Shown here: positions 1 through 60,500 of the stretch, piece by piece
How the letters are laid out: the number at the start of each line of letters is the position of its first letter
Position numbering within the stretch: position 1 is the stretch's first letter
Assembly: GCA_026003335.1 (NCBI GenBank)
Contig: BPHB01000001.1
Span: 766,591-830,590, forward strand
DNA: 64,000 nucleotides
Origin: Chitinophagales bacterium
GTDB taxonomy: Bacteria; Bacteroidota; Bacteroidia; Chitinophagales; CAIOSU01
Reading direction: 5' to 3'
The notes under the pieces: generated by a model
What the model was told of the DNA's origin: nothing
Database searches by the model: none
The model's input: the letters and a program-made list of their open reading frames with translations, nothing else
Translations under genes and position numbers: made by a program

Positions 1-1
1 G

Positions 2-3000
2 AAAAAAGGGGCATTTTTCATACTGGGATTCCTGTTTATTGTCTTTTCTCAAGCACAAGTGCCTGAAGGAATTAAGTATCAGGCTGTTGCCCGAAATGAA
101 GCAGGACAGATCTATGCCAATCATCCTATCAGCCTGCGTTTGGTCGTTGTAGACAGTATGCAGGGGGGAGCCATTGTATTTCAGGAATTCCACAAGGTGC
201 GTACGAACGACTACGGACTTTTTAGCGTCACCCTGAATGACGGCATCGGCAAAATAGGTTCTTTTGAGGGAATCAACTGGGCACAAAGTAAACCTTATCT
301 GGCCGTTTACCTAGATCCTAATAATGGCACCAATTATCAACTGATAGGCATATCGAGGTTAGTAGCTGTACCCTACGCGCTTTATGCCAAAAATGCCGGT
401 GGTCCGGGACTCAAAGACACCAGCAGCACCAATGAGCTGATTACCAGTTTTACTTTCATCCCCGCTACCAATGAACTGGTTATCGTGGAATCCGGAAATA
501 CCTATACGGTCACCATTAACAAAGAAGCCGATGATCTGAGTGACAACCTGATCAATGACCTTGCCGATGTGGATGCACATCCCGACAGCGGTCAAATTCT
601 GAAATGGAACGGAAACCAATGGACAGCATCCGATGAACTTAAAATCTTCATGGCAAATAACAAGCTAATCACAAGCACCGGTGATACGATTGACCTGGTA
701 ATGTTTTTGGATAATACCGATACGCAGAAAATTTCCTTTGATGCGAATACCAACATCCTGACATTGACCAACGGTGGCTGGGTTGATCTTTCTGATCTTT
801 CTACAGATGCCTACAACCAGTCCATGACTTTTGATTCGGTCAGTAAATTGCTCACAATTACTGATGGAAATGGACAAGTATTTGTAGACCTCAGTCCCCT
901 GATTAATGATGCCGATGCCGATCCGCGAAATGAAATAAATCAGTTTCTCCATTATGACCCGATCACCAAAAGACTCAGTATTACGGATGCCGGAGGTACC
1001 CTATCGGTTGATTTATCTAACCTGATCAATGATGCGGATGCCGACCCGCTGAATGAAGTGAACCGGGCCATAAGACTGGTAGGAACAACTCTGGAAATTG
1101 AAGATGCCGGAGGTACTATATCCGTGGACCTCAGCCCCATTAGCAATGATGCTGATGCGGATCCTACCAATGAATTACAAACTATCTCAAACTCACGGGT
1201 GGGCAACAATATTACCCTCCAGATATCCAATGGGAATACCACTACCTTCAGCGTGAATGACTCCGATCCGGACCCTTTTAATGAATTGATTCAAACTGTT
1301 GAACTTTCCGGCACCCAGCTTACTATAACCGAGGGAAATAATGTCTCCACCGTGGACCTCAGCAGCCTGATCAACGATGCCGATGCCAATCCGACTAATG
1401 AAATCCAATACCTGAACTTTAATAGTAATACAAATACTCTCAGCATCAGCGGAGGCAACTCGGTGAATCTGAGCTCTCTTGTGGGAACCGATAATCAGGA
1501 ACTCAGCGTAGTTGTTGTAGATAATAGTTTGGCCTATATCACCATCACTGACGGCAACACCATTGCTTTCCCGATTGAAGACAAAGACGCAAATCCCACA
1601 AACGAATTGATTAAACTGTTTCAGTTTGATTCCGTAGCTAATAGCATTACTATTGGAGACTTAGGCGACACCCTGACCCTCAGCCTTCAGGACCTGGTCA
1701 ATGATGCATTCAACAAAGACTTTACTTTTGATTCCCTTACCAACACCATCACCATCACCGATGACGGTGGCTCTTTTACCCTCAGCCTTCAAGACCTGGT
1801 CAATGACGCCTTTAACAAAAACTTTACTTTTGATTCCCTTACCAACACCATCACCATCACCGATGACGGAGGCTCTTTTACCCTCAGCCTCCAGGACCTG
1901 GTCAATGATGCATTCAACAAAGACTTTACTTTTGATTCCATCTCCAACACCATCACCATCACCGATGACGGTGGCTCTTTTACCCTCAGCCTTCAGGACC
2001 TGGTCAATGACGCCTTTAACAAAAACTTTACTTTCAATCCTGTAACCAACGAAATCACTATCACCGATGACGGTGGCTCTTTTACCCTCAGCCTTCAGGA
2101 CCTGGTCAATGACGCCTTTAACAAAAACTTTACTTTCAATCCTGTAACCAACGAAATCACCATCACCGATGACGGTGGCTCTTTCACCCTCAGCCTCCAG
2201 GACCTGGTCAATGATGCATTCAACAAAGACTTTACTTTTGATTCCATCTCCAACACCATCACCATCACCGATGACGGAGGCTCTTTTACCCTCAGCCTCC
2301 AGGACCTGGTCAATGATGCATTCAACAAAGACTTTACTTTTGATTCCATCTCCAACACCATCACCATCACCGATGACGGTGGCTCTTTTACCCTCAGCCT
2401 TCAAGACCTGGTCAATGACGCCTTTAACAAAAACTTTACTTTTGATTCCCTTACCAACACCATCACCATCACCGATGACGGAGGCTCTTTTACCCTCAGC
2501 CTCCAGGACCTGGTCAATGATGCATTCAACAAAGACTTTACTTTTGATTCCATCTCCAACACCATCACCATCACCGATGACGGTGGCTCTTTTACCCTCA
2601 GCCTTCAGGACCTGGTCAATGACGCATTCAACAAAGACTTTACTTTTGATTCCATCTCCAACACCATCACCATCACCGATGACGGTGGCTCTTTTACCCT
2701 CAGCCTTCAGGACCTGGTCAATGACGCCTTTAACAAAAACTTTACTTTCAATCCTGTAACCAACGAAATCACTATCACCGATGACGGAGGCTCTTTTACC
2801 CTCAGCCTTCAAGACCTGGTCAATGACGCCTTTAACAAAAACTTTACTTTTGATTCCATCTCCAACACCATCACCATCACCGATGACGGAGGCTCTTTTA
2901 CCCTCAGCCTCCAGGACCTGGTCAATGATGCCTTTAACAAAAACTTTACTTTTGATTCCCTTACCAACACCATCACCATCACCGATGACGGAGGCTCTTT

Positions 3001-6000
3001 TACCCTCAGCCTTCAAGACCTGGTCAATGACGCCTTTAACAAAAACTTTACTTTTGATTCCCTTACCAACACCATCACCATCACCGATGACGGAGGCTCT
3101 TTTACCCTCAGCCTTCAAGACCTGGTCAATGACGCCTTTAACAAAAACTTTACTTTTGATTCCCTTACCTATCAGTTGACAATTACAGACAGTGGAGGAA
3201 GTAAAACTGTTGATTTATCTGCATTAAAGAACGACCCGGACAGTGACCCCACCAACGAGCTGCAAACCCTGAGTAACGTCAACGATACCCTGCACATCAG
3301 CGGGGTGAATTCTCCGATCAGCTTAAAGCCCTATCTGGACAACACAGATAGTCAAACGCTCTCTTTTTCCGGTGGGGTGCTTTCAATAACCGGGGGAAAT
3401 AGCGTAGTTATTCCGGACGAAGTAGATGATGCGGATGCCAGTCCGACCAACGAACTGAATATAAGTGCAGCCCTTGTTGGCTCTACCCTGCACATTACGG
3501 ATGCGGGCGGAACACTCACTGTGGATTTGAGCAGTCTTGCAGATAATGACCCTGACCCAACCAACGAAATACAAACACTCTCCCTGGTTGGAAATACCCT
3601 TTCCATAAGTGGAGGGAACTCGGTAACTCTGCTGGATAATGATCCAGGCAATGAATATAACACGGGAGCAGCTTTAGTCGGAACTACACTGCAGATAACC
3701 GATGGAGGCGGAAGTCTTCTTGTTGATCTCTCCAGTCTGAAAAATGATGCCGATGCAGATCCAACTAATGAATTTAATACCAGCGTACTGTTAGTCGGCA
3801 CATCACTCATCATTACCGATGGAGGAGGTTCTAAGGTTGCCGACCTGAGCAGTCTTGTGGGAACGGATAACCAAACTCTTAACCTGAGCGGTACTACACT
3901 CTCCATTTCCGGAGGCAACTCCGTGGATCTCAGTGCTTTTCTGGATAACACCGACAATCAGGCTCTTTCTCTCTCCGGCAGCAACCTGAGTATCTCCGGG
4001 GGCAATACCATTGACATCAGTGCCATCAACACCGACAATCAGGACCTCAGCCTTGCTGGCAATATCCTCAGCCTCTCCGGTGACGCCACTCCTGTGGACC
4101 TCAGCCCTTTCTTGGATAATACCGACAACCAAACCCTCAGCGTCTCCAATGACTCTATCTTCATCTCGGGTGGAAACGCTGTGGACGTCAGTGCCTACCG
4201 CCAGACACTCTCCCTCAGCGCTAACACCCTGGCTATCTCCGGAGCGAACTCCGTAAATCTGAGTGCTTTTCTGGATAATACCGACAATCAAACCCTCTCT
4301 CTCTCCGGCAACAACCTGAGCATATCCGGGGGCAACACCATTGACATCAGTGCCATCAACACCGACAATCAGGACCTCAGCCTTGCTGGCAATACCCTCA
4401 GCCTCTCCGGTGACGCCACTCCTGTGGACCTCAGCTCCTTCCTGGATAATACCGACAACCAAACCCTTAGCGTCTCCAATGACTCTATCTTCATCTCGGG
4501 CGGAAACGCTGTGGACGTCAGCGCTTACCGCCAGACGCTCTCCCTCAGCGCTAACACCCTGGCTATCTCCGGTGCGAACTCTGTAAACCTGAGTGCTTTT
4601 CTGGATAACACGGACAATCAGAATCTGAGCTCAAACAAATCCGGTAACAACGTAACCATTCAGATCAGCGGAGGCAGCGGAACCACTTTCAGCGTAGCTG
4701 ATGCGGACAGCAGCGCTTCCAATGAACTGCAAACACTGTTGCTGTTGCCCGGAAATAACCTGGCTATCACCAACGGGAACAGTGTCAACCTCAGTGCATT
4801 CATGGACAACACCGATAATCAAGTCCTTTCCATCAGCAATGATTCCCTGTATATTTCCGGAGGCAATGCTGTTGACTTAAGCCCTTACCTTGACAACACT
4901 GACAATCAGATGCTCAGCATTAATAGTGACACCATTTTTATTCAAAACGGTAACTACATTATCCTACCTCCCAATGGATTCAATCCCGATGATCAGTTTC
5001 TTACATTAACCGGCTCTATCCTTTCCATAGACAACGGAAATGCTGTGGACCTCAGCCCCTTCCTGGACAATACCGACAACCAGGCCCTCAGCGTCTCCAA
5101 TGACTCTATCTTCATCTCGGGCGGAAACGCTGTAGATGTCAGCGCTTACCGCCAGACGCTCTCCCTCAGCGCTAACACCCTGGCTATCTCCGGAGCTAAC
5201 TCCGTAAACCTGAGTGCTTTTCTGGATAATACCGACAATCAGACCCTCTCTCTCTCCGGCAACAATCTGAGCATCTCCGGGGGCAACACCATTGACATCA
5301 GTGCCATCAACACCGACAATCAGGACCTCAGCCTTGCTGGCAATATCCTCAGCCTCTCCGGTGACCCTACTCCCGTGGACCTCAGCCCCTTCCTGGACAA
5401 TACTGACAACCAAACCCTCAGCCTCTCCAATGACTCTATCTTCATCTCGGGTGGAAACGCTGTGGACGTCAGTGCCTACCGCCAGACACTCTCCCTCAGC
5501 GCTAACACCCTGGCTATCTCCGGAGCTAACTCCGTAAACCTGAGTGCTTTTCTGGATAACACCGACAACCAAACCCTCTCTCTCTCCGGCAACAACCTGA
5601 GTATCTCCGGGGGCAACACCATTGACATCAGTGCCATCAACACCGACAATCAGGACCTCAGCCTTGCTGGCAATATCCTCAGCCTATCCGGTGACCCTAC
5701 TCCCGTGGACCTCAGCCCCTTCCTGGACAATACTGACAACCAAACCCTCAGCCTCTCCAATGACTCTATCTTCATCTCGGGCGGAAACGCTGTGGACGTC
5801 AGCGCTTACCGCCAGACGCTCTCCCTCAGCGCTAACACCCTGGCTATCTCCGGTGCGAACTCTGTAAACCTGAGTGCTTTTCTGGATAATACCGACAATC
5901 AAACCCTCTCTCTCTCCGGCAACAATCTGAGCATCTCCGGAGGCAACACCATTGACATCAGTGCCATCAACACCGACAATCAAACGCTCTTCTTAAGTAC

Positions 6001-6544
6001 AGACTCCTTGGAAATATCCGGAGGCAACAAGGTGCCGATGAGATGGCATGAATCTTCAGGAAATATCTATCGTCCAGCAGGTAAAGTGGGAATAGGGACT
6101 TCAAGCCCTGCATATCCGCTGGACGTAAATGGTGACGCTCGTGTGGGCTGGCACGGCAGCTCCGATACCATTCAGATATTGCCGGGTGATTTTATCGTCA
6201 GTGATTCGGCAGGTACTCCTATTGCATCCCTGAACTTCACTGCGGGAGAGTTTGGTGTAAAATCAAAATACAGCGGAGCTCCCTTATTTGTTTCGCTTCC
6301 CGTACCAGTAGGCTATAAAGCCACTAAGGCTACTATTTTCGGAAATGCCGCCCGACCTGTGGTGGCTTATGCAGTCAATCTTATCAATGGCAATGAAACC
6401 ACACTCGGTAGTGGTACGGTAAATACGGAATTAGACTTTACGGATTTAAATTATTCCAGCACCGGCTATTTGCTGCTGCGTATCATGGGGCCTAACTCAT
6501 CTGATGTTTTTTACGGAGGCTACGTGATTATAGAACGGCTCTGA
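2..6544 (+). CDS. Giant secreted repeat (fibre-like) protein, 5'-truncated by window edge
   Basis: The frame is open from the first bases of the window. It begins inside a hydrophobic signal peptide (KKGAFFILGFLFIVFSQAQ), so the GTG at 59 lies just after the likely signal-peptidase site and is not the start; the true ATG should lie only a few codons outside. After a ~110-residue N-terminal domain typical of secreted Bacteroidota proteins (PEGIKYQAVARN..., ending VPYALYAKNA), the protein is almost entirely short beta-strand repeats. These are acidic units ending in DADADPTNE, a 34-residue tandem array (DNA 1691-3166), and 110-residue super-repeats with DNTDNQTLSLSG and LSISGGN motifs (3944-5985). 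Near the end is a GIGTSSPAYPLDVNG motif, as in trimeric fibre and tail-spike-like proteins, then a ~125-residue C-terminal domain ending GGYVIIERL. No type A or CHU_C T9SS sorting domain is visible. The repeat character suggests an elongated surface fibre; the ligand is unknown. The frame is certain and the function is inferred. Confidence 0.85.
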   Translation, partial: KKGAFFILGFLFIVFSQAQVPEGIKYQAVARNEAGQIYANHPISLRLVVVDSMQGGAIVFQEFHKVRTNDYGLFSVTLNDGIGKIGSFEGINWAQSKPYLAVYLDPNNGTNYQLIGISRLVAVPYALYAKNAGGPGLKDTSSTNELITSFTFIPATNELVIVESGNTYTVTINKEADDLSDNLINDLADVDAHPDSGQILKWNGNQWTASDELKIFMANNKLITSTGDTIDLVMFLDNTDTQKISFDANTNILTLTNGGWVDLSDLSTDAYNQSMTFDSVSKLLTITDGNGQVFVDLSPLINDADADPRNEINQFLHYDPITKRLSITDAGGTLSVDLSNLINDADADPLNEVNRAIRLVGTTLEIEDAGGTISVDLSPISNDADADPTNELQTISNSRVGNNITLQISNGNTTTFSVNDSDPDPFNELIQTVELSGTQLTITEGNNVSTVDLSSLINDADANPTNEIQYLNFNSNTNTLSISGGNSVNLSSLVGTDNQELSVVVVDNSLAYITITDGNTIAFPIEDKDANPTNELIKLFQFDSVANSITIGDLGDTLTLSLQDLVNDAFNKDFTFDSLTNTITITDDGGSFTLSLQDLVNDAFNKNFTFDSLTNTITITDDGGSFTLSLQDLVNDAFNKDFTFDSISNTITITDDGGSFTLSLQDLVNDAFNKNFTFNPVTNEITITDDGGSFTLSLQDLVNDAFNKNFTFNPVTNEITITDDGGSFTLSLQDLVNDAFNKDFTFDSISNTITITDDGGSFTLSLQDLVNDAFNKDFTFDSISNTITITDDGGSFTLSLQDLVNDAFNKNFTFDSLTNTITITDDGGSFTLSLQDLVNDAFNKDFTFDSISNTITITDDGGSFTLSLQDLVNDAFNKDFTFDSISNTITITDDGGSFTLSLQDLVNDAFNKNFTFNPVTNEITITDDGGSFTLSLQDLVNDAFNKNFTFDSISNTITITDDGGSFTLSLQDLVNDAFNKNFTFDSLTNTITITDDGGSFTLSLQDLVNDAFNKNFTFDSLTNTITITDDGGSFTLSLQDLVNDAFNKNFTFDSLTYQLTITDSGGSKTVDLSALKNDPDSDPTNELQTLSNVNDTLHISGVNSPISLKPYLDNTDSQTLSFSGGVLSITGGNSVVIPDEVDDADASPTNELNISAALVGSTLHITDAGGTLTVDLSSLADNDPDPTNEIQTLSLVGNTLSISGGNSVTLLDNDPGNEYNTGAALVGTTLQITDGGGSLLVDLSSLKNDADADPTNEFNTSVLLVGTSLIITDGGGSKVADLSSLVGTDNQTLNLSGTTLSISGGNSVDLSAFLDNTDNQALSLSGSNLSISGGNTIDISAINTDNQDLSLAGNILSLSGDATPVDLSPFLDNTDNQTLSVSNDSIFISGGNAVDVSAYRQTLSLSANTLAISGANSVNLSAFLDNTDNQTLSLSGNNLSISGGNTIDISAINTDNQDLSLAGNTLSLSGDATPVDLSSFLDNTDNQTLSVSNDSIFISGGNAVDVSAYRQTLSLSANTLAISGANSVNLSAFLDNTDNQNLSSNKSGNNVTIQISGGSGTTFSVADADSSASNELQTLLLLPGNNLAITNGNSVNLSAFMDNTDNQVLSISNDSLYISGGNAVDLSPYLDNTDNQMLSINSDTIFIQNGNYIILPPNGFNPDDQFLTLTGSILSIDNGNAVDLSPFLDNTDNQALSVSNDSIFISGGNAVDVSAYRQTLSLSANTLAISGANSVNLSAFLDNTDNQTLSLSGNNLSISGGNTIDISAINTDNQDLSLAGNILSLSGDPTPVDLSPFLDNTDNQTLSLSNDSIFISGGNAVDVSAYRQTLSLSANTLAISGANSVNLSAFLDNTDNQTLSLSGNNLSISGGNTIDISAINTDNQDLSLAGNILSLSGDPTPVDLSPFLDNTDNQTLSLSNDSIFISGGNAVDVSAYRQTLSLSANTLAISGANSVNLSAFLDNTDNQTLSLSGNNLSISGGNTIDISAINTDNQTLFLSTDSLEISGGNKVPMRWHESSGNIYRPAGKVGIGTSSPAYPLDVNGDARVGWHGSSDTIQILPGDFIVSDSAGTPIASLNFTAGEFGVKSKYSGAPLFVSLPVPVGYKATKATIFGNAARPVVAYAVNLINGNETTLGSGTVNTELDFTDLNYSSTGYLLLRIMGPNSSDVFYGGYVIIERL
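1691..3166 (+). repeat. 102-bp coding tandem repeat, 15 unit starts
   Basis: Units begin at 1691 and recur exactly every 102 bp to 3119, each starting GACCTGGTCAATGA. There are fourteen complete units plus a fifteenth that diverges after about 48 bp. Each encodes 34 residues starting DLVNDAFNK and ending TDDGGSFTLSLQ. The units differ mainly in one cassette, DSLTNTITI, DSISNTITI or NPVTNEITI, and in KD versus KN. The order of cassettes (L, L, S, N, N, S, S, L, S, S, N, S, L, L, L) is a shuffled mosaic, suggesting unequal crossing-over or gene conversion. The unit length is a multiple of three, so copy-number change keeps the frame. Confidence 0.95.
3944..4603 (+). repeat. 330-bp super-repeat, first block (two units)
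   Basis: Two consecutive 330-bp (110-residue) units start at 3944 and 4274. Each contains, in order, DNTDNQ..LSLSG, LSISGGNTIDISAINTDNQ, LSLSGDATPVDLS, LSVSNDSIFISGGNAVDVS and AYRQTLSLSANTLAISGAN. The two copies differ at scattered codons only. A related block lies at 5225-5884. Confidence 0.9.
5225..5884 (+). repeat. 330-bp super-repeat, second block (two full units plus partial flanks)
   Basis: This is the same 110-residue unit as in 3944-4603, with full copies starting at 5225 and 5555, a partial copy before (from about 5066) and one after (to about 5985). The two full copies of this block share GDPTPVDLS where the first block has GDATPVDLS. About 620 bp of less repetitive but related sequence separates the blocks, so the array probably arose by block duplication and then drift. 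Confidence 0.88.
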
Positions 6545-44717: not shown

Positions 44718-45545
44718 ATGAAAACTATTGTCTTTTATAAATATCAAGGTAATGGGAACGACTTTATCGTGATAGACAACCGCCAGCAGCAGGTAAACGG
44801 GCTCTCTTCTGATATCATCCGTTCCCTTTGTCATCGTCAATTTGGCATTGGTGCTGACGGCCTGATTCTTATGCACGCTTCCGGGGAGTATGATTTCATC
44901 ATGCAGTATTTTAATTCCGATGGCCGGGAAAGCACTATGTGTGGTAACGGAGGTCGGTGCATAGTCCGCTTTGCCCAACATCTGGCTCTCATTACAGATA
45001 GGGCACGCTTTCTTGCTGTTGATGGACCTCATGAAGCAATCATCCGCAAAGATGGCCTCATCATGCTGAAAATGAAAGATGTGGCCGTGGTGACTCTCAA
45101 AGGAGAAGATTTCGTTCTGGATACCGGTTCCCCTCACTATGTCAGGTTTGCTGAGCATGTACACATGTTGCACGTTCCGGATGAGAGCAGGAAAATCCGG
45201 AATGCTGAGGAGTTTGTAAAAGAAGGCATCAACGTGAATTTCGTTGAAATGCAGGAAGGAAAGCTTTTTGTACGAACCTATGAACGCGGGGTGGAAGACG
45301 AAACGCTATCCTGCGGAACAGGAGTTGTTGCGGCAGCCCTTGTAAGCTCAATAAAATCGGGCTCTGAGGCGGGCCGCCAAAATGTTGCAGTGGAGACCCC
45401 CGGAGGATATTTTGAGGTTTCTTTTTTAAAAAAACAAGACGGGGGTTTTTCCGATATATGGCTTATCGGGGATGCCCGTCTAGTATTTAAAGGCGAAGTG
45501 GAAATACCCTCCTCAAACCCCTACCCCCTAAAGATCACCACATAG
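44718..45545 (+). CDS. dapF: Diaminopimelate epimerase
   Basis: The protein has 275 residues, the usual DapF length. The active-site cysteines are Cys75 in STMCGNGGRC and Cys199 in LSCGTGVVAAAL, which act as the acid/base pair. QGNGNDFIVID at the N-terminus and YERGVEDETLSCGTG confirm the family. It converts LL-diaminopimelate to meso-diaminopimelate for peptidoglycan and lysine. The stop codon lies inside the 3' end of the convergent giant adhesin gene; the two coding ends overlap by 25 bp (45521-45545). Confidence 0.95.
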   Translation: MKTIVFYKYQGNGNDFIVIDNRQQQVNGLSSDIIRSLCHRQFGIGADGLILMHASGEYDFIMQYFNSDGRESTMCGNGGRCIVRFAQHLALITDRARFLAVDGPHEAIIRKDGLIMLKMKDVAVVTLKGEDFVLDTGSPHYVRFAEHVHMLHVPDESRKIRNAEEFVKEGINVNFVEMQEGKLFVRTYERGVEDETLSCGTGVVAAALVSSIKSGSEAGRQNVAVETPGGYFEVSFLKKQDGGFSDIWLIGDARLVFKGEVEIPSSNPYPLKITT

Positions 45546-48500
45546 CCGGTAAAGATGGATTTCCACGCATCGTTTAACTTCAGAATAAAGTAATAGGTGC
45601 CATCCGGCAGCGGTTCGCCATCCTGATTAACCCCATTCCACTGGTTTCTGTAGCCTTTCTTGCGATACACCTCGTTACCCCAGCGGTTGAAAATGATAAC
45701 CTCATTATCAGGATACTTTTCTAGCCCCTGAATCTCCCAGAATTCATTTGACTCATCCTGGTTAGGAGATATGGCATTAGGTATGAAAAGACGCGGATCA
45801 GCTGCATCAATGGTGATATACACATTAGCCGTATCGCATAACATGGGCTCTCCATCATCACAAATCACGTAGGTAAACATATCTGTTCCTACAAATCCAT
45901 CGTCCGGCACATAAGTTACCGTACCATCAGAATTGACAATCACGTTTCCGTGCTCGGGTTGATTGACGATGCCGGTAATACGAATGTTATCTCCATCCGG
46001 ATCGTAATCATTGAGTAATACAAATATATCTCTGCCTTCCCCGCTGTTGCCAGGCACCGTATCATTGATGGCTACCGGTGGGCGATTGCATGAAGAAGCC
46101 TGCAGATAAAACACAGCCGATACCGAACATCCCCTATTATCTGTCACCGTAATGGCATATTGCCCGACAGCTAACCCCTCCGCCACAGCAGATTGCCTGC
46201 CGTTAGCCCATTGATAGGTGTAAGGAGGTGTCCCCCCCTGAGCTATTACTTCAATGCGCCCATCGGCCAAATCACTGCAGCTAGGATGTGTAATTATAGA
46301 GGCAGACAAACTCATAGCATCCGGTTGGTTAATACGGAAGGTGCCAACTGCGTTACATGATATCGCATCCGTAACGGTTACAGTATAATTGCCGGCTTCC
46401 ACATCTTGTAAATCTTCGGCAACAGAGCCATTACTCCACAGATAAGTATAGGGAGGTGTGCCTCCATGCACACTGATAAACACACTTCCGTTTTGCTGGT
46501 TGCTACAGGTAGTATGAATGATAGTATCCTGCACAATTTGTATGGCAGTCGGCTGCCCCACGGAAACAGAATCCTCGTCCATGCAGTTATGCGCATCCTT
46601 AACAGTAACCGAATACGCTCCCGCTGCAAGGGAAGTAATAATGGCATCGCTCATTCCATTGGACCATTTATAGGAATAAGGAGGAACACCTCCGCTGACC
46701 TGGATGGCAACAGAGCCATTGTTACCACCATAACAGGATACTTCAGTCACCGCGGTAAATTCCACATCCAGTTGTGTAGGTTGTCCAATATGAAAAGTTT
46801 CCGAACCCCTGCATCCGTTACCATCCGTCACCGTAACCGAATAGGTACCGGCAGCAACTGCAATCAGATTCCTGGTGGACGTTCCGTTTGACCAGGTGTA
46901 TGAATAGACCCCAGTTCCTCCGGTTATGGTTATGTTTATTGCACCACTGGAATCACCGAAACAGTTCACGTCTGTAATAATTCCTACCACGCGGATGGCT
47001 GCCGGTTCCCTAATGTTATAGGTAACACTTTCCAGGCAGCCTTTACTATCGGCAACCGTAACAGTATAGCTTCCGAAGAGCAGCCCGGTGGCATCCTCTG
47101 TGTTGTGTCCGTGCGACCAACTATACACATACGGTGGAGAACCTCCTTGTACCGTGATATCAATGCTACCATCCGCAGCACCCTGACATGACGCATCCTG
47201 TATAGCGGTAACCGCAATGCTAAGGTCAGCAGGTTGCATGATAGGGAATGTGCCCTGCCTGTTGCAGTTTTTTGCGTCCGTCACAGTAACTGTATATGTA
47301 CCGGCCGCAAGAGCGCTTAGGTCTTCGGACGTGGAGCCATCGTTCCATAAATACACATAAGGAGGTGTGCCTCCGGCTACGGATATATCCAGCAATCCAT
47401 TGCTGCCTCCATAACACGACACATGAGCAGAATCGGAAACAGTAATGCTGATCTCCGATGGCTGGTCAATGAGGAAAGTATGTGTTTTCACACAAGCATT
47501 GGCATCCGAAATAGTCACCGTATAACTGCCCGATGGCAGGTTACTGATATCCTTTGTATTTAAGCCATTACTCCACAGATAGGCATATGGAGCTGTACCC
47601 CCGGCTACGTTAAGCGTTATAGCTCCGTTGCTATGACCGTAGCAAGACACGTCTTGTATGTTTTGTGCCTGCACAACAAGCGCGGAAGGCTGACCGATAT
47701 TGAAATTGCCAATGCGTGTACAGCCCTTTGCATCCGTCACTGTTACCTGGTAGCTTCCCGCGGAAAGAGTTTCTCCATTTTGTGTGGTTGCCCCGTTGCT
47801 CCACAGGTAAGTATAAGGTGGAGTGCCTCCACTTACATTGATACGAATATATCCGCTGGCCTCTCCGTTACATTTAGCATCACTAATGCCGGTTACACCT
47901 ATGGATAAGGCCTGTGCCGGTTGACCGATATGATAGGTTGCTGTTCTGGTACAGAATTTTGCATCCGTAACCGTAACACTGTAACTGCCGGCCGTAACAT
48001 GCACCAAATCTTCGCTTGTAGCTCCATTACTCCAGAGATACACATAAGGTGGAGTGCCTCCTGTAACAGATATATGAATACTACCACTTGCCTGTCCGTA
48101 GCACAGAGCGTCTGAAACACCATCCACAGTAACATTCAGCTCATCAGGCTGACTAATGATTTTACTTAATGTTTTCGCACAGTTTTGTACATCCGTTACG
48201 GTCACTGTGTATGTTCCAGCAGAAAGACTGCTCAGGTCTTCGGAACTGGCACCGTTGCTCCACAGATATGTGTAAGGTGGAGTGCCTCCCTGCACCGTGA
48301 TATTAATGGCTCCGGTAGCTCCGCCATAGCATGAAGCATCTTTTGCTTCAGTAATTATCACTGCAAGATCGGTGGGTTCGCCAATGTTAAAGTTGCCCGC
48401 AACAGTACAATTCTGCATATCTGTCACCGTAACGCTGTAGCTGCCTTCACTCAGGCTGTCTAAGTGATTTGTAGTGGCTCCGTTTGACCATAGGTAGCTA

Positions 48501-51500
48501 TAACCAGGCGTACCGCCATTAGCAGTGATATGCACAAAACCTGTAGCGGACCCATGGCACAATGCATCGGAAATCGCTGTTAAGTTGACACTCAGAACGG
48601 GAGGTTGTCCGATATTGTAATGCGCAGTGAGCGCACAACCATTGGCATCTGTTATGGTAACACTGTAACTGCCGGCTGCCAGGTTACTAAGTGAAGCTGA
48701 TGTGTCCCCACGGCTCCACAAATAAGTATAAGGTGCTGTTCCTCCATTTCCCCGAACAGAAATTCTGCCATCCGGCTTGCCGTTACAGGTAGCGTCTGCA
48801 ATTCCTGTGACGCTTACGGTTAATTGCGTGGGTGCGCCAACTGTAAAGCTTTGTATTTGGACACATCCATGGGCATCTGTAACCGTAACACTGTAGTTAC
48901 CGGCACTTAAGGTGTTTAAGTCTTTTGTCGTTTCACCCGTATTCCAGGCATATATATAATCCGGTGTACCTCCACTCACACTCAGGTTAATGCTGCCGTT
49001 GGCACTGCCGCTGCATGACGCATGGACAACGCTGCCGTGCACTGCCAAAGGCGATGGCTCCTCTATTACTGCTGCAAGACTCGTGACGCATCCGTTTGCA
49101 TCCGTGATTATTACCGAATAACTTCCAGCAGCCAGGCCAGAAAGGTCTTCGCTTGTGTCACCGGTGCTCCACATAAACCCATAAGGGGCTACTCCTCCCG
49201 AAACCGCGAGATTCAGGTACCCCGATGCTCCGCCATTGCAACCAACATTCTGAGGTATTACGAAAGCAGTAAGAGCAGCAGGTTGGTTAATCGTTACTGT
49301 GAGCTGGCTGATACAGCTATTGGCATCTGAAACAGTTACGCTGTAGGAACCCGCAGGAATGCCTGCAATGTCTTCCGTTGTTGCTCCGTTGCTCCAGACA
49401 TACTGGTAAGGAGGCACACCTCCGTTTACGCTGATATCAATTGCTCCGTTGTTTGCGGAGTTACAAAGCACATTCGTCTTTGCAAATCCAATAGTCAAAG
49501 GTGCGGGCTGATTAACAACAACCGTACTTACTGAACTGCATCCCTGTGCATCCAATACGGTAACCGTATATGAACCGGCAGATAAGGAAGCTACATCCCT
49601 GGTCTGGGCACCATGACTCCATAGATAGCTGTAAGCAGGAGTGCCTCCCTGTACAGTCAGACTTATTGCACCATTATTCATGCCACTGCATGTAAGGTGT
49701 GTTACTGAAGGTGAAACCACAAGTGCATCAGGTTGAGGCATATTTACACTTGCAACCTCAATGCAGCCTTGAGCATCCGTTACGGTAACCCCATAGACTC
49801 CGGCACCCAATCCGTGTATATCTTCGGAAGTAGCTCCGTTTGACCACTGGTAGGTGTAGCCGGGTGTTCCTCCGCTCACCGAAATATCCAGCGCCCCGTT
49901 AGTGCCTCCGTTGCAGGAAACAGGCGTTATCCCGGCAAGAGTAATACTGATGGCTGAAGGTTGTGTAATCGCATAAGACGCCTGCCTGAAGCATCCTTTT
50001 GAATCTGTAACAGTAACAGATATGGTGCCTGCTGACAAACCGCTTACATCTTCAGAGGCAGCTCCGTTTGACCACTGGTAGGTGTAGCCGGGTGTTCCTC
50101 CGCTCACCGAAATGTCCAGCGCCCCGTTAGTACCTCCGTTGCAGGAAACAGGTGTATTGGAAACTAAAGCAATTTGGATAGGCTGAGGCTGTCCTACACT
50201 CACTCCTTTTGATTTACTGCAGCCCTTGGAATCGGTAACGGTGAGAGAAAAATAAAACGCGGCCAAGCCCGTGATATCTTCTGTTGTAGCTCCGGTGTTC
50301 CATTGATAACTATACGGTGGCGTTCCACCAGTCACAGTAGCGTCAATTGCTCCGTCCTTACCTCCACTGCAGCTTGTGTTAGTAACAGCAAGTGTGATGG
50401 ATAGTGAATCAGACTCATGCACGGGGACTACGGCTGTAGTTGAGCACGCATGCGCATCAGTAATCGTTACGGAGTAAGTGCCCGCAGAAATACCAGAAAG
50501 ATCTTCGGTGACCGAACTATCAGACCAGAGGAAAGCATACGGCATGGTTCCGCCACTTACCGTCAGAGAGATTGCACCGTCACTGCCGCCATAACACTGC
50601 ACATTAGTCACCGTCCATGTAGCTGACAACGCTGCCGGCTGGCCTACAGTTATGCTGCCGGATTGTACACAGTTATGCATATCTGTAACAGTAACTACAT
50701 ACGTGCCGGCACTCAGGCTGCTGATATCTTCAGTAGTATCACCTGTAGACCATACAAATGCATACGGCATGGTTCCACCATACACGGTCATATCCACGGA
50801 GCCCCCATTCCCGCCATGACAGCTTACATCTGTTTTTGCAAAGGTTAACATAAGCTGTGCAGGTTGTGCAATTGTTATCGTTGCCGCTGCTGAACAATTA
50901 TGAGCATCGGCAATGGTTACCGAGTAGCTACCTGCTGTGAGCCCATTGATATCTTCGGTAGTAGCTCCTGTACTCCAGATAGATGCATAAGGCCCGGTTC
51001 CTCCGGTAACCGTTAAATCTATTGCACCATCCGCATAACCATTGCAGCTAACATCGGTTTGAGCTACGGACAGGCTCAGCAAGTCAGGCTCATAGATGAC
51101 AGCTGTTGCGGTGGTGGTGCAATTATATGCATCGGTGACAGTTACAGTATAGGCACCTGCCGATATTTGTGATAAATCTTCGGTTGATGCTCCATTAGAC
51201 CAGTTAAAAGTATAATTTGATACACCTCCAGTGACCGTCAAATCTATTGCTCCATCAGCACCTCCATTGCAACGCACATCAGTTTTTGCCACCATTGCCG
51301 AAAGAACATCCGGCTGTGAGATTGTTGTACTGGTTGTTGCAGAGCAATGCTGTGCATCTGTGACAGTTACAGTATAGCTACCTGCGCTCAATCCACTCAA
51401 ATCCTGTGTAGTGTCTCCATTGCTCCAGTTGTAAGAGTAAGGCATGGTGCCTCCACTCACACTCAGATTAATAGCCCCATCGCTGTATCCATTGCATCGC

Positions 51501-54500
51501 ACGTTGGACTGCGTAAGCGAAGCTGTAAGATTATCGGGCTGTAAAATCGTAACATTTCTGGTCAGCGTACAGCCCTGCGCATCCGTAACGGTTACGGCAT
51601 ACACACCCGCAGCAAGACCGCTGACAGCGGTTGTGGTAGCGCCATTAGACCAGTTGAATGTATAGGGCGCAGTACCTCCGCTCACCGTGAGACTTATCGC
51701 ACCATTACTTTCTCCGAAGCAAATTACATCGGTTTTGCTGATAGCCACCGAAAGTCCAGAAGGCTGTGTTATGATAAAGCTCTGTGAAAGTGTGCAACCG
51801 TTGGAGTCTGACACCATAACATCATAACTACCGGCTGTCAGATTGCTGAGATCTTCCGTTGTGTCTCCCGTTGACCACAGATACACGTAAGGCACTGTTC
51901 CTCCTGTTACGGAGATGTCTATGCCGCCATTTGCAGAACCATTACAGCTGGCATGCTGTATTACATGACTTAATGATAGTGCATCGGGCTCTACAATCGC
52001 GGTGCTGTCCTGTAACTGACATCCGTTCGCATCAGAAACTGTCACGCTGTAATTTCCTGCTTCCAGTGAAGAAAGGTTTTGAATGGTATCACCGGTTGAC
52101 CAGAGGAAGGCATAAGGAGCTACTCCTCCATGGACGGCAAGATGCAGCTGCCCGTCATTTCTGCCATGACAGCTTACCTGCACCGCGCTCATAGATGTTA
52201 CCAGAGGCGATGGTTGTGTGATATTTGCGCCCGCAGTAGTCTGACAGCCCTGCGCATCGGTAATCGTTACCTGATAAGAGCCTATAGCCAGATCGCTTAC
52301 ATCCTGAGATGTTGCCCCGGTTGACCAGTTGTATGTATAGGGAGGAGTGGAGCCGGAAACAGTGAGATGAATAAATCCGTCACTGCCTCCATGACAACTC
52401 ACATCCGTTACCGCCACGTTAATTGAATAAGCAGAAGGTTGTCCCACACTCACAGTCTGACTGCCACTGCATCCAAGAGAATCCACCACCTGCACGGCAT
52501 AACTGCCTGCCGGTAAGCCGGCTACAAATGAATCGGTATCCGAAACCGGATTCCAGGTGTAGATGAAAGGGGGAGTACCAGAAGAGATGATTACGCTGGC
52601 GCTGCCATCACTGCCCCCATGACACGTAACATTTTTTATCGTTACTGTGAAATTCACCGAAGGATAAGAACCCAGATTTACGCTTGCGGTCTTCTGACAC
52701 ATTTGCGCATCGGTGACTGTAATCACATAAGTACCTCCATCAAGATTATGGATATTTTCAGTAGTTGCACCATTGGACCACATATAGGAATAAGGAGCAA
52801 TCCCTCCTGAAACGCTAACAGAAGCTTCTCCATTTGATTCTCCGCACGTAGCAGGTGTTGATGAAAGGATAAGCACCAACTCATCAGGTTGTGATACTGT
52901 TGCCGACTCTACTGTAATGCAGCTTTGTGCATCTGTTACCGTAACGCTATAATAACCTGCCGGAACGCCAATGAGGTCTTTGGCCGTATCACCATTACTC
53001 CATATATATGTATAAGGAGGTGTTCCGCCCTGCACAGTTAAGTAAACTGCACCATCACTGTTGCCAAAACAGTTTGCATCTGTTTTGATAGCAGAGGCTG
53101 TAAGCATTTCTGGTTCCGATAAGGTAACACCATGGACAATGAAGCAGCCCTGTGCATCTGTTACCGTAACAGTATAATCTGCTGCCGCAATGTCCCAAAG
53201 GTCTTCGGTAGTTTCGCCATTGCTCCACAAGTAGGCGTAAGGAGGTGTTCCGCCCTGTACAGTCAAATCTATAGCACCGTCACTTCCACCATTACAGCTC
53301 ACGTGTGTGATAATGTCAGATACGGTGAGCGATGCAGGATGGCTGATTGTTGCGGATACAATGGTCATACAGCCTTTAACATCAGTGATAGTTGCCGAAT
53401 AAGCACCTACGGACAATCCGGAAATGTCTTCTGTCGTATCCCCGTTAGACCATAGATACGTGTAAGGCGGGGTACCTCCTGTTGCAGTGATATCCACGGC
53501 TCCATCATTACCACCATTGCAGCTTACATTAGTCTTTGTGGCTGTAGCCGAGAGTACAGTCGGCTCGATGACCGTGGCAGTAGCCAAAGTATTACAACCA
53601 TGATTATCCGTCACGGTCACGTGGAATGTGCCTGCTGATAAACCAGAAATGTCTTCCAATGTATCTCCGTTTGACCAGTTAAACTGATATGGTGGCGTAC
53701 CTCCATTCACGGTCAGGTCAATGGTACCATCGCTGCCGCCATGGCAACTTACGTCCGTAACAACAACTGTGGTATTCAGATCATCAGGTTGATCTATAAA
53801 GGCAGAAAGAGTAACAATACATCCCTTGTTATCCGTTACTGTAACAGAGTAGACCCCTTGAGTAAGATTCATCACATCTTTGGTGTTGTGTCCGCTGGAC
53901 CAAACAAACGAAAAAGGCGGAGTTCCACCGGTCACCGTTAGGTTAACCTCGCCATCATTGCCACCATAACAGCTTACATCGGTATGTGTTTCGCTTACCT
54001 GCAACACGGGAGGCTGCGTGATGGTAACGGCCGCTGTGGCGTTGCAAAGTTGCGCATCGGTTACAGTCACTGTATAAGTTCCGCTGCTCAAGCCACCAAC
54101 GTCCTGGCTGGTGGAGCCTGTTGACCACAGATAAGTATAAGGAGGCGATCCGCCAGCCACGGATAAATCTATAGCGCCATCACTCCCGCTGAAGCAACTT
54201 ACGTTTGTCTGAGCTGTGGAAAGCACAAGCAATGCCGGTTCAATAATGGTTACTGTTTCGGTGAGCATACAACTTTGGGCATCCGTAACGGTTACAGTGT
54301 AGGTGCCGGCAGGCAAACTGCTGATATCTTCTTCTGTAGCGCCTGTGTTCCATATGAAAACATAAGGCGGACTTCCTCCGGTAATCGTTAAATCAATTGA
54401 TCCATTATTACCCCCATTACAGCTTACATTTACCTGTGCAAAGGAAGATTCCAGGGCTGTTGGCTGGGTGATGGATGCTGCTGTGCTTACCGTGCATCCG

Positions 54501-57500
54501 TTATTATCTGATACAGTAACGCTGTATGTACCTACAGCAAGCGCTGTAATGTCTTCGGTACTAGCCCCGGTTGACCAACTGTAGATGTAAGGTGGCGTAC
54601 CCCCGGTGACAGTTAAATCCATAGAGCCATCCATGCCGCCATAGCAACTTACATGGCTTTGTGTTGTTGTCGCGGTAAGCACATCCGGTTCGGTTATCGG
54701 TATGCTGCTGGTTATGGAGCAACTAAGACCATCTAGGATGGTTACGGTATAGACTCCTGCAGACACCCCTATAAGGTCTTCTGTAGTGGCTCCGTTTGAC
54801 CAACTGTATGCATAAGGCAAGGTGCCTCCGCTCACCGTCAAATCTATAGAACCGTTACTGCCGCCATAGCAGCTTACATTGATTTTTGTAGTAGATGCCG
54901 AAAGAGCGGATGGCTGGGTAAGGGTAGCTCCCGTTGTAAATGTGCAACCGTTTGCATCGCTAACGGTCACCGTGTAGCTTCCTGCTGAAAGCCCTGAGAG
55001 GTCTTCCGTGGTGGCTCCGTTTGACCAACTGAATACATAAGGCGTAGTGCCTCCGCTCACCGTCAAATCTATAGAACCGTTGCTGCCGCCATGGCAGCTT
55101 ACGTTCACCTGGCTGGTAGAAGCCGTCAGTGTGGTGGGCTCAGTAATGGTGGTTCCCGTTGTAAATGTGCAACCGTTCGCATCGTTAACGGTCACCGTGT
55201 AGTTTCCTGCTGAAAGCCCTGAGAGGTCTTCTGTGGTGGCCCCGTTTGACCAACTGTATGCATAAGGCGTAGTGCCTCCGCTCACCGTCAAATCTATAGA
55301 ACCATTGCTGCCGCCATGGCAGCTTACGTTCACCTGGCTGGTAGAAGCCGTCAGTGTGGTGGGCTCAGTAATGGTGGTTCCCGTTGTAAATGTGCAACCG
55401 TTCGCATCGTTAACGGTCACCGTGTAGTTTCCTGCTGAAAGCCCTGAGAGGTCTTCTGTGGTGGCCCCGTTTGACCAACTGTATGCATAAGGCGTAGTGC
55501 CTCCGCTCACCGTCAAATCTGTAGAACCGTTGCTGCCGCCGTGGCAGCTTACGTTCACCTGTACAGTAGAGGCAGTGAGCGTAGCGGGCTCTGTAATCGT
55601 TCTGCTCAGAGTAGTCGTGCAGCCTTTTGCATCAGCTATGGTAACGACATATGTGCCGGCTGTAAGACCACTTACGTCCTGTGTATTTGCACTATTAGAC
55701 CAATTATATGCATAGGGAATTGTACCACCGGTGACGTTTACATCAATTAAGCCATCATTACCACCATTGCAGCTTACATTCACCTGTGTAGCAGAAGCAT
55801 TGAGTATGGCAGGTTCCGTAATATTTACACTTGCAGAAACGGTGCAGCTTTGTGCATCTGTTACAGTTACTGAATAGCTGCCCACACCTAAGCCGGAGAT
55901 ATTCTGCGTAGTAGCGCCATTAGACCACAGATATGAATAGGCCATTGTACCCCCTGTCACTGTGAGTCCAATAGAGCCATCAGTGAAACCATTACAACTC
56001 ACATGCACAATAGGCCCAGGAATGGCCGAGAGGAGTGGGGGCTGCGTGATGGAGAAACTCTCAGTCAGTGAACACCCTTTGGCATCGTTTACCGAAACCG
56101 TATATGTTCCGGCAGATAAGCCGCTGATATCCTGTGTTGCAGCACCATTGGACCAGGCGTATGTGTAAGGAATCGTTCCTCCTGAAACCGTAAGATCAAT
56201 GGACCCGTTGTTTCCTCCGAAGCAACTGACGGCCACCTCTGTTGAAGAAACCGAAAGTGCCGCAGGCTGAGTAATTGTTGCGATGGCAACCGCTGTGCAA
56301 CCCTTATCATCGGTTACTGTTACGGTATACGTACCAACACTCAGACCGCTGATGTCTTCTGTTGTGGCGCTATTAGACCATGAGTAGGTATAAGGCATTG
56401 TTCCACCTGTCACACTCAAATCTACCGAGCCATCACTGCCACCATAACAGCTTACGTTGACCCATGCTCTGGAGGCAGAAAGCAAAGGGGGCTCAGTAAT
56501 TTCAACCGAATCAATCCGCACGCAGTTTTTCGCATCTGTAATCGTAACCCGGTAGGTGGATGCTGACAATCCATTTATGTTTTGTGTTGTAGCCCCGTTG
56601 GACCACAAATACGTGTATGGCGAAGTGCCACCTGAAACAGCGAGATGAATTACCGAACCATCGCTGCCACCATAACAGCTTACATTGGCAGCCGTAATTG
56701 TGGAAATCAATAAGGGAGGCTGTGCAACGGTTCTGGATGCCGTTGCCGTACATCCAAGCGCATCGGTAACAGTAACGCTATAAGTGCCTGTAACCAGTCC
56801 GGTGATATTTTGTGTTATTGCACCAGTGCTCCAGTTATAGGAATAAGGAGCAGTTCCTCCGGTAACGGTCAGCACAACAGCGCCATCGTTACCACCAAAA
56901 CAACTCACATCGGTTTTTACTGCATTTACCGATAATACTGCGGGTTGCGTGATAGTCGCTCCGGATAAGGCTGTACAGCCGTTTGCATCTGTAACGGTGA
57001 CAGTATAGTTTCCTACTGAAAGTCCGGTAAGGTCTTCACTAGTGGCTCCGTTTGACCAGCTGTATACATAAGGCATGGTGCCTCCGGCTACCGTTAAATC
57101 AATGGAGCCATTACTGCCGCCATTGCAGCTCACGTGCGCAGGTAAAGCAGACGCGCTCAATACGGCAGGCTCGGTAATGGTTCTGGAAAGGGTTGCTGAG
57201 CAGTTGTTGGCATCGGTGACCGTAACGGTATAGGTTCCTATGCTCAGGCTGCTCAGATCCTGGGAGGTTGCCCCTGTAGACCACAGGTAGCTAAAGGGAG
57301 GAGTTCCTCCCCCCACGCTTACGTCTATCTCCCCATCATTGCCGCCATTGCAGTTCACATGTACCAGCGAGGCGGAAACCGTCAATGCAGCGGGTTCGGT
57401 AATAGTCCTGGAAAGCGTTATTGAGCAGTTATTGGCATCGGTGACCGTAACAGTATAGGTTCCGGCAGAAAGACCAAAGATATCCTCCGAAGAGGAGCCC

Positions 57501-60500
57501 TCAGACCAATTGAAATTATATGGTAACGTACCACCAGCAACGATAAGATTAATTGAACCATTATTGCCTCCATTGCAACTTACATGCATCAGAGAAGCGG
57601 AAGCATTTAAAACCGCTGGCTGCGTGACCTCATAGGTAGCCACCCTGCTGCAAAGGAAAGCATCTGTCACCGTAACCGTATAAGTACCGACTGTCAGTCC
57701 GGAGATATCCTGAAAAATAGATCCGTTGGACCACATATACGTCAAAGGCAGGGTTCCTCCAGAGACGGAAATATCAATAGCCCCATCGCTACCACCAAAG
57801 CAGCTCACGTTAGTTTTTGATACAAGAGTTATTACCAGCGGAGTAGCTTCCCCTACGGCAATGGAGGCCTGGGCAATACAGTTGTGTGCATCTGTAACGG
57901 TAACAGTATAATTTCCCGCTGAAAGGCCGGTGAGGTCTTCCGTGTTGGCTCCGTTACTCCAGGCATAGGTATATACTGATGTTCCTCCCGATACACTCAA
58001 ATCAATGGAGCCATCGCTGCCACCATTGCAAGAGGCATCTGACGTAGTCCAGCTTAAAGATACCGGTGAGGCAGGTTGCGTTATTGTAATAGTGCCAGGA
58101 GAGGTTGTACAAGCATTGGCATCGGTCACCGTTACCGTATAATTTCCTGCCGTCAACCCGGAGAGGTCTTCTGTGTTAGCTCCGTTTGACCAGCTAAATG
58201 CATAGGGCGGAGTGCCTCCCGAAACTGTTAAGCTGATAGAACCGGAAGAGGCTCCAAAGCATAACACGTCTTGTTTTGCATAGATGATGTTTACCTGAGA
58301 CGGCTCAGAGATCGTTGCCCCGGATGTTATCGTGCATCCCATTGCATCGGTTACGGTAACCGTGTAGTTACCCGCAGTGAGAGAAGAAATATTTTGTGTT
58401 GTTGCCCCATTAGACCAGAGATATGTGTAAGGCGTAGTACCTCCACTTACGGTCAGGGAGACAGAGCCGTTGTTCCCTCCGTTACAACTCACATGCACAG
58501 GCAAATTAGAAGCCGTGAGCAATGCAGGCTGTGTAATCGTTGCTCCTGCTGTGACGGAACAACCGTTCGCATCGCTAACGGTCACCGTGTAGTTTCCTGC
58601 TGAAAGCCCTGAGAGGTCTTCCGTGGTGGCTCCGTTTGACCAACTGAAAACATAAGGCGTAGTGCCTCCGCTCACCGTCAAATCTATAGAACCGTTGTTG
58701 CCGCCATAGCAGCTTACATTGATTTTTGTAGTAGATGCCGAAAGAGCGGATGGCTGGGTAATGGTAGCTCCCGTTGTAAATGTGCAACCGTTCGTATCGC
58801 TAACGGTCACCGTGTAGCTTCCTGCTGAAAGCCCTGAGAGGTCTTCTGTGGTGGCTCCGTTTGACCAACTGAATGCATAAGGCGTAGTGCCTCCGCTCAC
58901 CGTCAAATCTATAGAACCGTTGCTGCCGCCATAACAGCTTACATTGATTTTTGTAGTAGATGCCGAAAGAGCGGATGGCTGGGTAAGGGTGGCTCCCGTT
59001 GTAAATGTGCAACCGTTTGCATCGCTAACGGTCACCGTGTAGCTTCCTGCTGAAAGCCCTGAGAGGTCTTCCGTGGTGGCTCCGTTTGACCAACTGAATG
59101 CATAAGGCGTGGTGCCTCCGCTCACCGTCAAATCTATAGAACCGTTGCTGCCGCCATAACAGCTTACATTGATTTTTGTAGTAGATGCCGAAAGAGCGGA
59201 TGGCTGGGTAAGGGTAGCTCCCGTTGTGAATGTGCAACCGTTTGCATCGCTAACGGTCACCGTGTAGCTTCCTGCTGAAAGCCCTGAGAGGTCTTCTGTG
59301 GTGGCCCCGTTTGACCAACTGTATGCATAAGGCGTAGTGCCTCCGCTCACCGTCAAATCTATAGAACCGTTGCTGCCGCCATAACAGCTTACGTTCACCT
59401 GGCTGGTAGAAGCCGTCAGTGTGGTGGGCTCAGTAATGGTGGTTCCCGTTGTAAATGTGCAACCGTTTGCATCGCTAACGGTCACCGTGTAGCTTCCTGC
59501 TGAAAGCCCTGAGAGGTCTTCCGTGGTGGCTCCGTTTGACCAACTGAATACATAAGGCGTAGTGCCTCCGCTCACCGTCAAATCTATAGAACCGTTGCTG
59601 CCGCCATAACAGCTTACATTGATTTTTGTAGTAGATGCCGAAAGAGCGGATGGCTGGGTAAGGGTAGCTCCCGTTGTGAATGTGCAACCGTTTGCATCGC
59701 TAACGGTCACCGTGTAGCTTCCTGCTGAAAGCCCTGAGAGGTCTTCGGTGGTGGCCCCGTTTGACCAACTGTATGCATAAGGCGTAGTGCCTCCGCTCAC
59801 CGTCAAATCTATAGAACCGTTATTTCCATTGTAACAGCTGACGTTCACCTGAGTAAGTGAAGCAGTAAATAATGCCGGCTGTGTAATAGTAGTAACTGAA
59901 GTTGTTGTGCAGCTGAGGGCATCAGTAACGGTAACTGTATATGTTCCAGCGGAGAGACCGGAAATATCTTGTGCTGCAGAACCGTTGGACCACAAATATG
60001 TATAGGGTGATGTGCCTCCACCTACAGTTAAATCTATGGAACCATTGTTGCCGCCATGGCAACTTACATTTACCTGCGTAAGCGAAGTGCTCAGAAGAGC
60101 TGGCTGTGTAATCGTCCTGCTTAAGGTAGCTGTACAGTTATTAGCATCCGTCACCGTCACTGCATAGCTACCTGCACTTAATCCGGTGATATCTTCTAAT
60201 GTAGAACCATGGGACCACAGGAATGAGTAAGGAGTTGTACCCCCGTTTACCGTTAAATTAATGGAGCCATTACTGCCGCCATAACAGCTCACATTTACGT
60301 GTGTTGCACTGAGGGTTAATGTAAATGGCTGAGTGATAGAAGCACCTGTGGAAGCAGTACAACCATTGGCATCCGTTATTGTTACATTATATGTGCCTGC
60401 AGTTAAGCCGCTGCGGTCCTCCGTAGTTATTCCGCCAGACCATAGATAGGAATAAGGAGCTACTCCCCCGCTTACGGTTAAATCAATGGAGCCATCGCTG

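Follow-up and report, generated by a model that had tools for sequence, protein, structure and literature searches.

An in-frame 102-bp repeat array in the stalk of a probable Bacteroidota surface fibre distantly related to mosaic adhesive trimers

In the genome of a Chitinophagales bacterium, a long open reading frame at the start of the 64,000-nt stretch of DNA analysed here (the window) contains a run of nearly identical 102-bp units, which raises the questions of what kind of protein these units build, how they multiplied and whether their number could still change. A first-pass annotation had proposed a mosaic tandem repeat with three interchangeable cassettes in shuffled order, subject to frequent in-frame slippage or conversion and conferring length and surface variation on a fibre. 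The repeat itself was recovered by TRF where that annotation had placed it, at 1676-3163 on the forward strand, with a period of 102 bp, 14.6 copies, 92% matches and 0% indels, and the self-identity of the array DNA is 0.917 at a lag of 102 bp compared with a mean of 0.261 at the other lags between 60 and 150 bp. Each unit is exactly 102 bp (34 aa) and lies in frame within a 2181-aa ORF, in which it reads LSLQDLVNDAFNK[D/N]FTF-cassette-ITITDDGGSFT. Units 1-14 are complete, and unit 15 (3107-3208) leaves the consensus after about 62 bases. A 485-aa open frame on the minus strand (1661-3118) is a reflection of these repeats, and we do not count it as a gene.

The gene that carries the array occupies positions 1-6544 of the forward strand as an uninterrupted open frame, with its ATG 2 bases to the left of the window (L007:9999). 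Behind a signal-like peptide, its product comprises a 114-aa N-domain (56-397), a proximal stalk of diverged beta repeats, often with NDADADPTNE linkers (398-1675), the array, and a distal stalk of diverged beta repeats (3164-6050, delineated by TRF and translation) that holds two blocks with a 330-bp period (3908-4620 and 5045-5982). These are followed by a capping-loop motif, VGIGTSSPAYPL, at frame residue 2029 (6084-6121) and by a C-terminal domain of about 120 aa (6176-6541), the presumed tip, for which sequence searches, including those of phage records and viral contigs, found no relatives. Pfam, NCBIfam and PHROG matches to the repeats (DUF5818, TcaA_5th, CADH_Y-type_LIR and others) were read as chance similarity summed over repeats, because mostly no single stretch passed alone or the scores were below cut-off, and because such functions make no sense for a fibre protein.

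Within the array unit, 19 of the 102 columns vary, grouped in linked blocks, namely the Leu/Gln codons at unit offsets 8 and 11, NDAFNK[D/N] at offsets 26-39 and the cassette at offsets 50-68, in addition to single synonymous sites at offsets 74, 89 and 98. The three cassettes are thus real, but each is a state of just one among several variable blocks. With L for DSLTNT, I for DSISNT and N for NPVTNE, their sequence along the array is L L I N N I I L I I N I L L L. The DNA of the NPVTNE cassette is present only in the array, with no donor elsewhere in the genome. Like cassettes are not clustered (runs test, P = 0.26), in agreement with a shuffled order, but the shuffling is not complete: a shift by six units (612 bp) gives an identity of 0.954 and an exact match of 274 bp, the best among short lags, with P of about 0.04 against shuffled unit order. 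This modest sign suggests, from the sequence, a past duplication that involved several units at once.

Point mutation and duplication of whole units alone are rarely expected to produce all four gametes, and 13 pairs of biallelic sites in the array units violate the four-gamete test. Furthermore, mean r2, computed both for site pairs inside single units and for pairs that span a unit border, declines from 0.57 at distances below 15 bp to 0.32 at 15-30 bp and 0.13 at 30-50 bp, and beyond 30-50 bp is near the small-sample background. Given these four-gamete failures and the decay of linkage within about 30-50 bp, the units have recombined internally, with exchange breakpoints inside them, and were not merely duplicated. 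It is therefore more apt to describe the cassettes as haplotype blocks than to treat them as discrete mobile modules. As an account of the history of the array, slippage or conversion is supported by the four-gamete violations, by linkage decay that extends across unit borders and by the signal of block duplication.

The range of linkage also bears on whether the copy number or order of the units was collapsed or scrambled in the draft genome, which consists of 24 contigs; exact repeats within the array reach 274 bp, longer than usual short reads. However, the array is far from the ends of its 2.08-Mb contig and free of N, and a 555-bp exact repeat was resolved on that contig. Moreover, linkage breaks at 30-50 bp, below the usual assembly k-mers, so that the mosaicism is not easily produced by misassembly. 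We judge the units and their mosaicism to be real, and the exact copy number is likely as assembled; a partial assembly artefact appears distinctly improbable. A 16S search of this genome gave no match, as was also the case for 5 of 14 control genomes, and is thus no guide to the type of assembly.

The clue to the nature of the protein lies at its N terminus. NF053851 (NCBIfam Bdello_MAT_N; curated cut-off, 60 bits) is the N-domain model of the Bdellovibrio mosaic adhesive trimers (MAT), and it was matched by all 47 N-domains in the alignment of relatives, with a best E value of 7e-14 and all bit scores shown below 60. Six N-domain copies from the same genome matched as well (E 2e-7 to 9e-5, up to 33.6 bits). 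The N-domain of the fibre protein itself belongs with the weaker matches, at 17.9 bits and E 0.002, and the link to MAT thus runs through relatives that are 33-53% identical to it. This score falls short of the more than 60 bits that mark membership of the subfamily, and NF053851 was not listed in the NCBIfam scan of the full-length protein. We call the fibre protein MAT-like and regard it as distantly related to these trimers, without assigning it to NCBI subfamily NF053851.

The architecture points in the same direction. In all 21 proteins of the MAT paper, the signal peptide is followed directly by a conserved domain, rich in beta structure and about 130 aa long, and the tips are of the S74 or other types (PMC10769870); here, a 114-aa domain predicted to be a beta-sandwich follows the signal peptide directly, and in 75 of 78 relatives a Met is found 12-45 aa ahead of the N-domain. 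AF2 modelled this domain with a pLDDT of about 88-98 over residues 1-100, and a PDB fold search with the N-domain returned generic Ig-like sandwiches only (Z up to 6.8), matches that may reflect a common arrangement alone. PDB sequence searches with the distal stalk, the N-domain profile and the head of a paralogue yielded nothing useful. The capping-loop motif aligns weakly with the capping loops of Bd3182 (8OJN, 8ONB and 8ONC; E 0.041 to PDB 8OJN), and it is present in 29 of the 78 N-domain proteins compared with 12 of 333 control ORFs; on this weak alignment together with the motif census, we count capping loops among the features shared with MAT.

The genome contains seven copies of the N-domain. 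Collagen modules are present in paralogue L023, together with DUF7151, and in L024, which adjoins the fibre gene directly upstream (L007:5839-9429) and combines collagen with FTLFFSDGSSFTT repeats in tandem. Paralogue L026 contains YadA_head and Peptidase_S74, L027 consists of beta repeats with a 255-bp array at 98%, and L028 is a shorter relative. Collagen, YadA_head and Peptidase_S74 modules are trimer-forming. The MAT-like N-domain and the capping loop, together with the paralogues that contain collagen, YadA-head and S74 modules, support the original proposal of a fibre. Paralogue L025 (L025:5126-6447, minus strand) is short, its ORF spanning 164 aa; an ORF resembling a fibre tip lies downstream in another frame, and L025 may be a broken copy. 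Two segments on different contigs, L027:3269-3700 and L028:3462-3892, share 432 bp at 98.6%, a similarity that suggests exchange between genes as well as within genes. Beyond this genome, at least one N-domain was identified in 74 of 395 sampled Bacteroidota genomes, and some genomes of the same order contain 10-15 copies.

No known anchor or sorting domain was detected in the fibre protein in Pfam and NCBIfam scans: the type IX (T9SS) sorting domains PF18962, PF13585 and TIGR04131 gave no match, and the Pfam scan of the whole protein revealed no YadA-like C-terminal membrane anchor, a trait of trimeric autotransporter adhesins (type Vc). Type IX sorting domains are present in nearby genes. 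A small ORF with Por_Secre_tail, one such domain, lies just ahead of the two fibre genes (L007:5088-5627). At the other end of the window, on the minus strand (45521-64000), an ORF of more than 6100 aa combines numerous SprB repeats with Big_9 and a type B T9SS sorting domain. This ORF has 225-bp tandem arrays of its own, at 92-93% (54774-55561 and 58560-59821), which makes it the second giant adhesin-like gene of the window to show such repeat expansion.

The fibre-like repeats and the capping loop, which is of the S74 tail-fibre type, would also be compatible with a prophage or phage tail fibre. However, the array, the N-domain and the tip had no match in 50,697 phage records, and neither the tip and array DNA nor the conserved unit pattern was found in viral contigs. 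Furthermore, the protein has a signal peptide, and the neighbours of its gene encode glutamine synthetase, BacA, YbbR and DoxX. We consider a phage origin of this kind extremely improbable.

In AF2 models, the diverged repeats form three-strand meanders joined by linkers of low confidence, and ten array units alone give an all-beta model with a pLDDT of 84 and a pTM of 0.85. Taken at face value, this second model would favour an array that forms a beta-solenoid rod as a monomer and takes no part in a trimer, the adhesin being otherwise alike and variable in length. However, AF2 gives confident but unrealistic beta-solenoids for near-perfect repeats (PMC11795689), and the PDB fold search with the array model returned no match that reached E 0.001; for these two reasons, we do not rely on it. 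The separate meanders modelled for diverged repeats of the same protein, and the collagen, YadA-head and S74 modules of the sister proteins, argue against such a rod as well, and we regard it as unlikely. The trimeric modules of the sister proteins instead suggest that the fibre itself would be a trimer.

Whether such stalks change in length was addressed through the family. In a census of 78 loci from other genomes (proteins of at least 400 aa, array periods of at least 30 bp), in-frame arrays were found in 14 of 61 N-domain proteins compared with 4 of 205 control ORFs (Fisher P 4e-7), and all 20 array periods were multiples of three. In one orthologous group from four species of the same family, the proteins are 65-80% identical and collinear in N-domain and tip, and their gaps of 9-33 aa, all multiples of three residues, are located within or at the start of the collagen-like stalk. 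Thus, stalks of this family evolve in length, as seen between species and in the collagen-like type of stalk, which speaks well, if indirectly, for changes in stalk length. In draft genomes of related species, some ORFs of the family run off the contig end (L205, L212), so that such drafts may give stalks that are too short.

Searches of 40 relatives and of a phylum sample with 394 other genomes yielded no homologue or orthologue of the 102-bp array itself. The array might be the product of an old duplication burst that is now fixed, its units kept alike by structural constraint and occasional conversion and its length without a role. Such a static stalk would fit the divergence among units, in which pN (0.043) is far below pS (0.22), indicating a constrained protein sequence, and in which synonymous divergence between unit classes is not small; moreover, no length variant of the array is known. 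However, although identity between units ranges from 83% to 100%, 6 of 91 pairs are identical in DNA, synonymous sites included, recombination has broken up linkage, and stalks of the family differ in length between species. A static stalk is therefore the less favoured view, with a small but appreciable chance of being correct. In the published Periscope Proteins, variation is largest where repeat identity is highest, and for the 102-bp array we predict length variation within the species. As the cassettes are conservative versions of a turn found in other repeats of the fibre protein, length is the likelier effect of array variation than antigenic surface, and the surface variation suggested in the first-pass annotation is weakly supported.

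On balance, the array is probably that part of a fibre stalk which was amplified recently, the fibre being secreted, presumably trimeric, surface-held, adhesive and distantly related to MAT. At the cell, the fibre would be held by its N-domain; the stalk would consist of the beta-meander repeats, and the C-terminal domain would act as the tip, with a putative role in binding. Misaligned recombination between direct repeats, that is, unequal crossing-over or slipped pairing with conversion-like exchange, probably multiplied one 34-aa unit, and the reading frame would be preserved because the DNA unit coincides with the structural repeat. Near-identical units would remain prone to gain and loss, and the main consequence would be a Periscope-like stalk of changeable length between an untouched N-domain and tip. 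More broadly, Bacteroidota could harbour a widespread and little-recognised branch of MAT-type fibres with recombining stalks of variable length, in which one conserved anchor presents many tips at changeable distances, a proposal to which we give slightly less than an even chance. The N-domain offers a marker by which many candidate adhesion fibres could be found among environmental Bacteroidota, and the 102-bp array is a handy test case for the rate of stalk length change.

Three known systems invite comparison. With the MAT fibres of the predator Bdellovibrio bacteriovorus, the fibre protein shares a beta-rich N-domain of similar size, a long beta stalk, capping loops and many copies per genome, and its sister proteins share varied tips, including S74. 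It differs in its host, a member of Bacteroidota and not Bdellovibrio, in an N-domain that scores below the curated cut-off of NF053851, in the collagen and YadA-head modules of the sister proteins and in the near-identical tandem array of its stalk; the main text of the MAT paper contains no word starting with "Bacteroid" (PMC10769870). With Periscope Proteins, it shares a long stretch of highly identical, in-frame tandem repeats in the stalk, expected to set how far a functional domain projects. The proteins named as Periscope Proteins are anchored to the cell wall and their strain variation has been observed, whereas the array described here is known from one genome, its unit is a 34-aa beta meander and its anchoring end would be N-terminal. 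In Bartonella adhesin A (BadA), a trimeric autotransporter, a repetitive neck and stalk is likewise reshuffled by recombination between more conserved ends, but that protein is anchored in the membrane by its C terminus and its stalk domains are larger, at 68-147 aa (PMC8859334), whereas no YadA-type anchor was found in the fibre protein. A limited literature search revealed no paper joining mosaic adhesive trimers with stalks of variable length in Bacteroidota. The mechanism of amplification is thus of a known kind, and what is new is the combination, in Bacteroidota, of these two previously described ideas, along with the wide occurrence of the N-domain family across the phylum.
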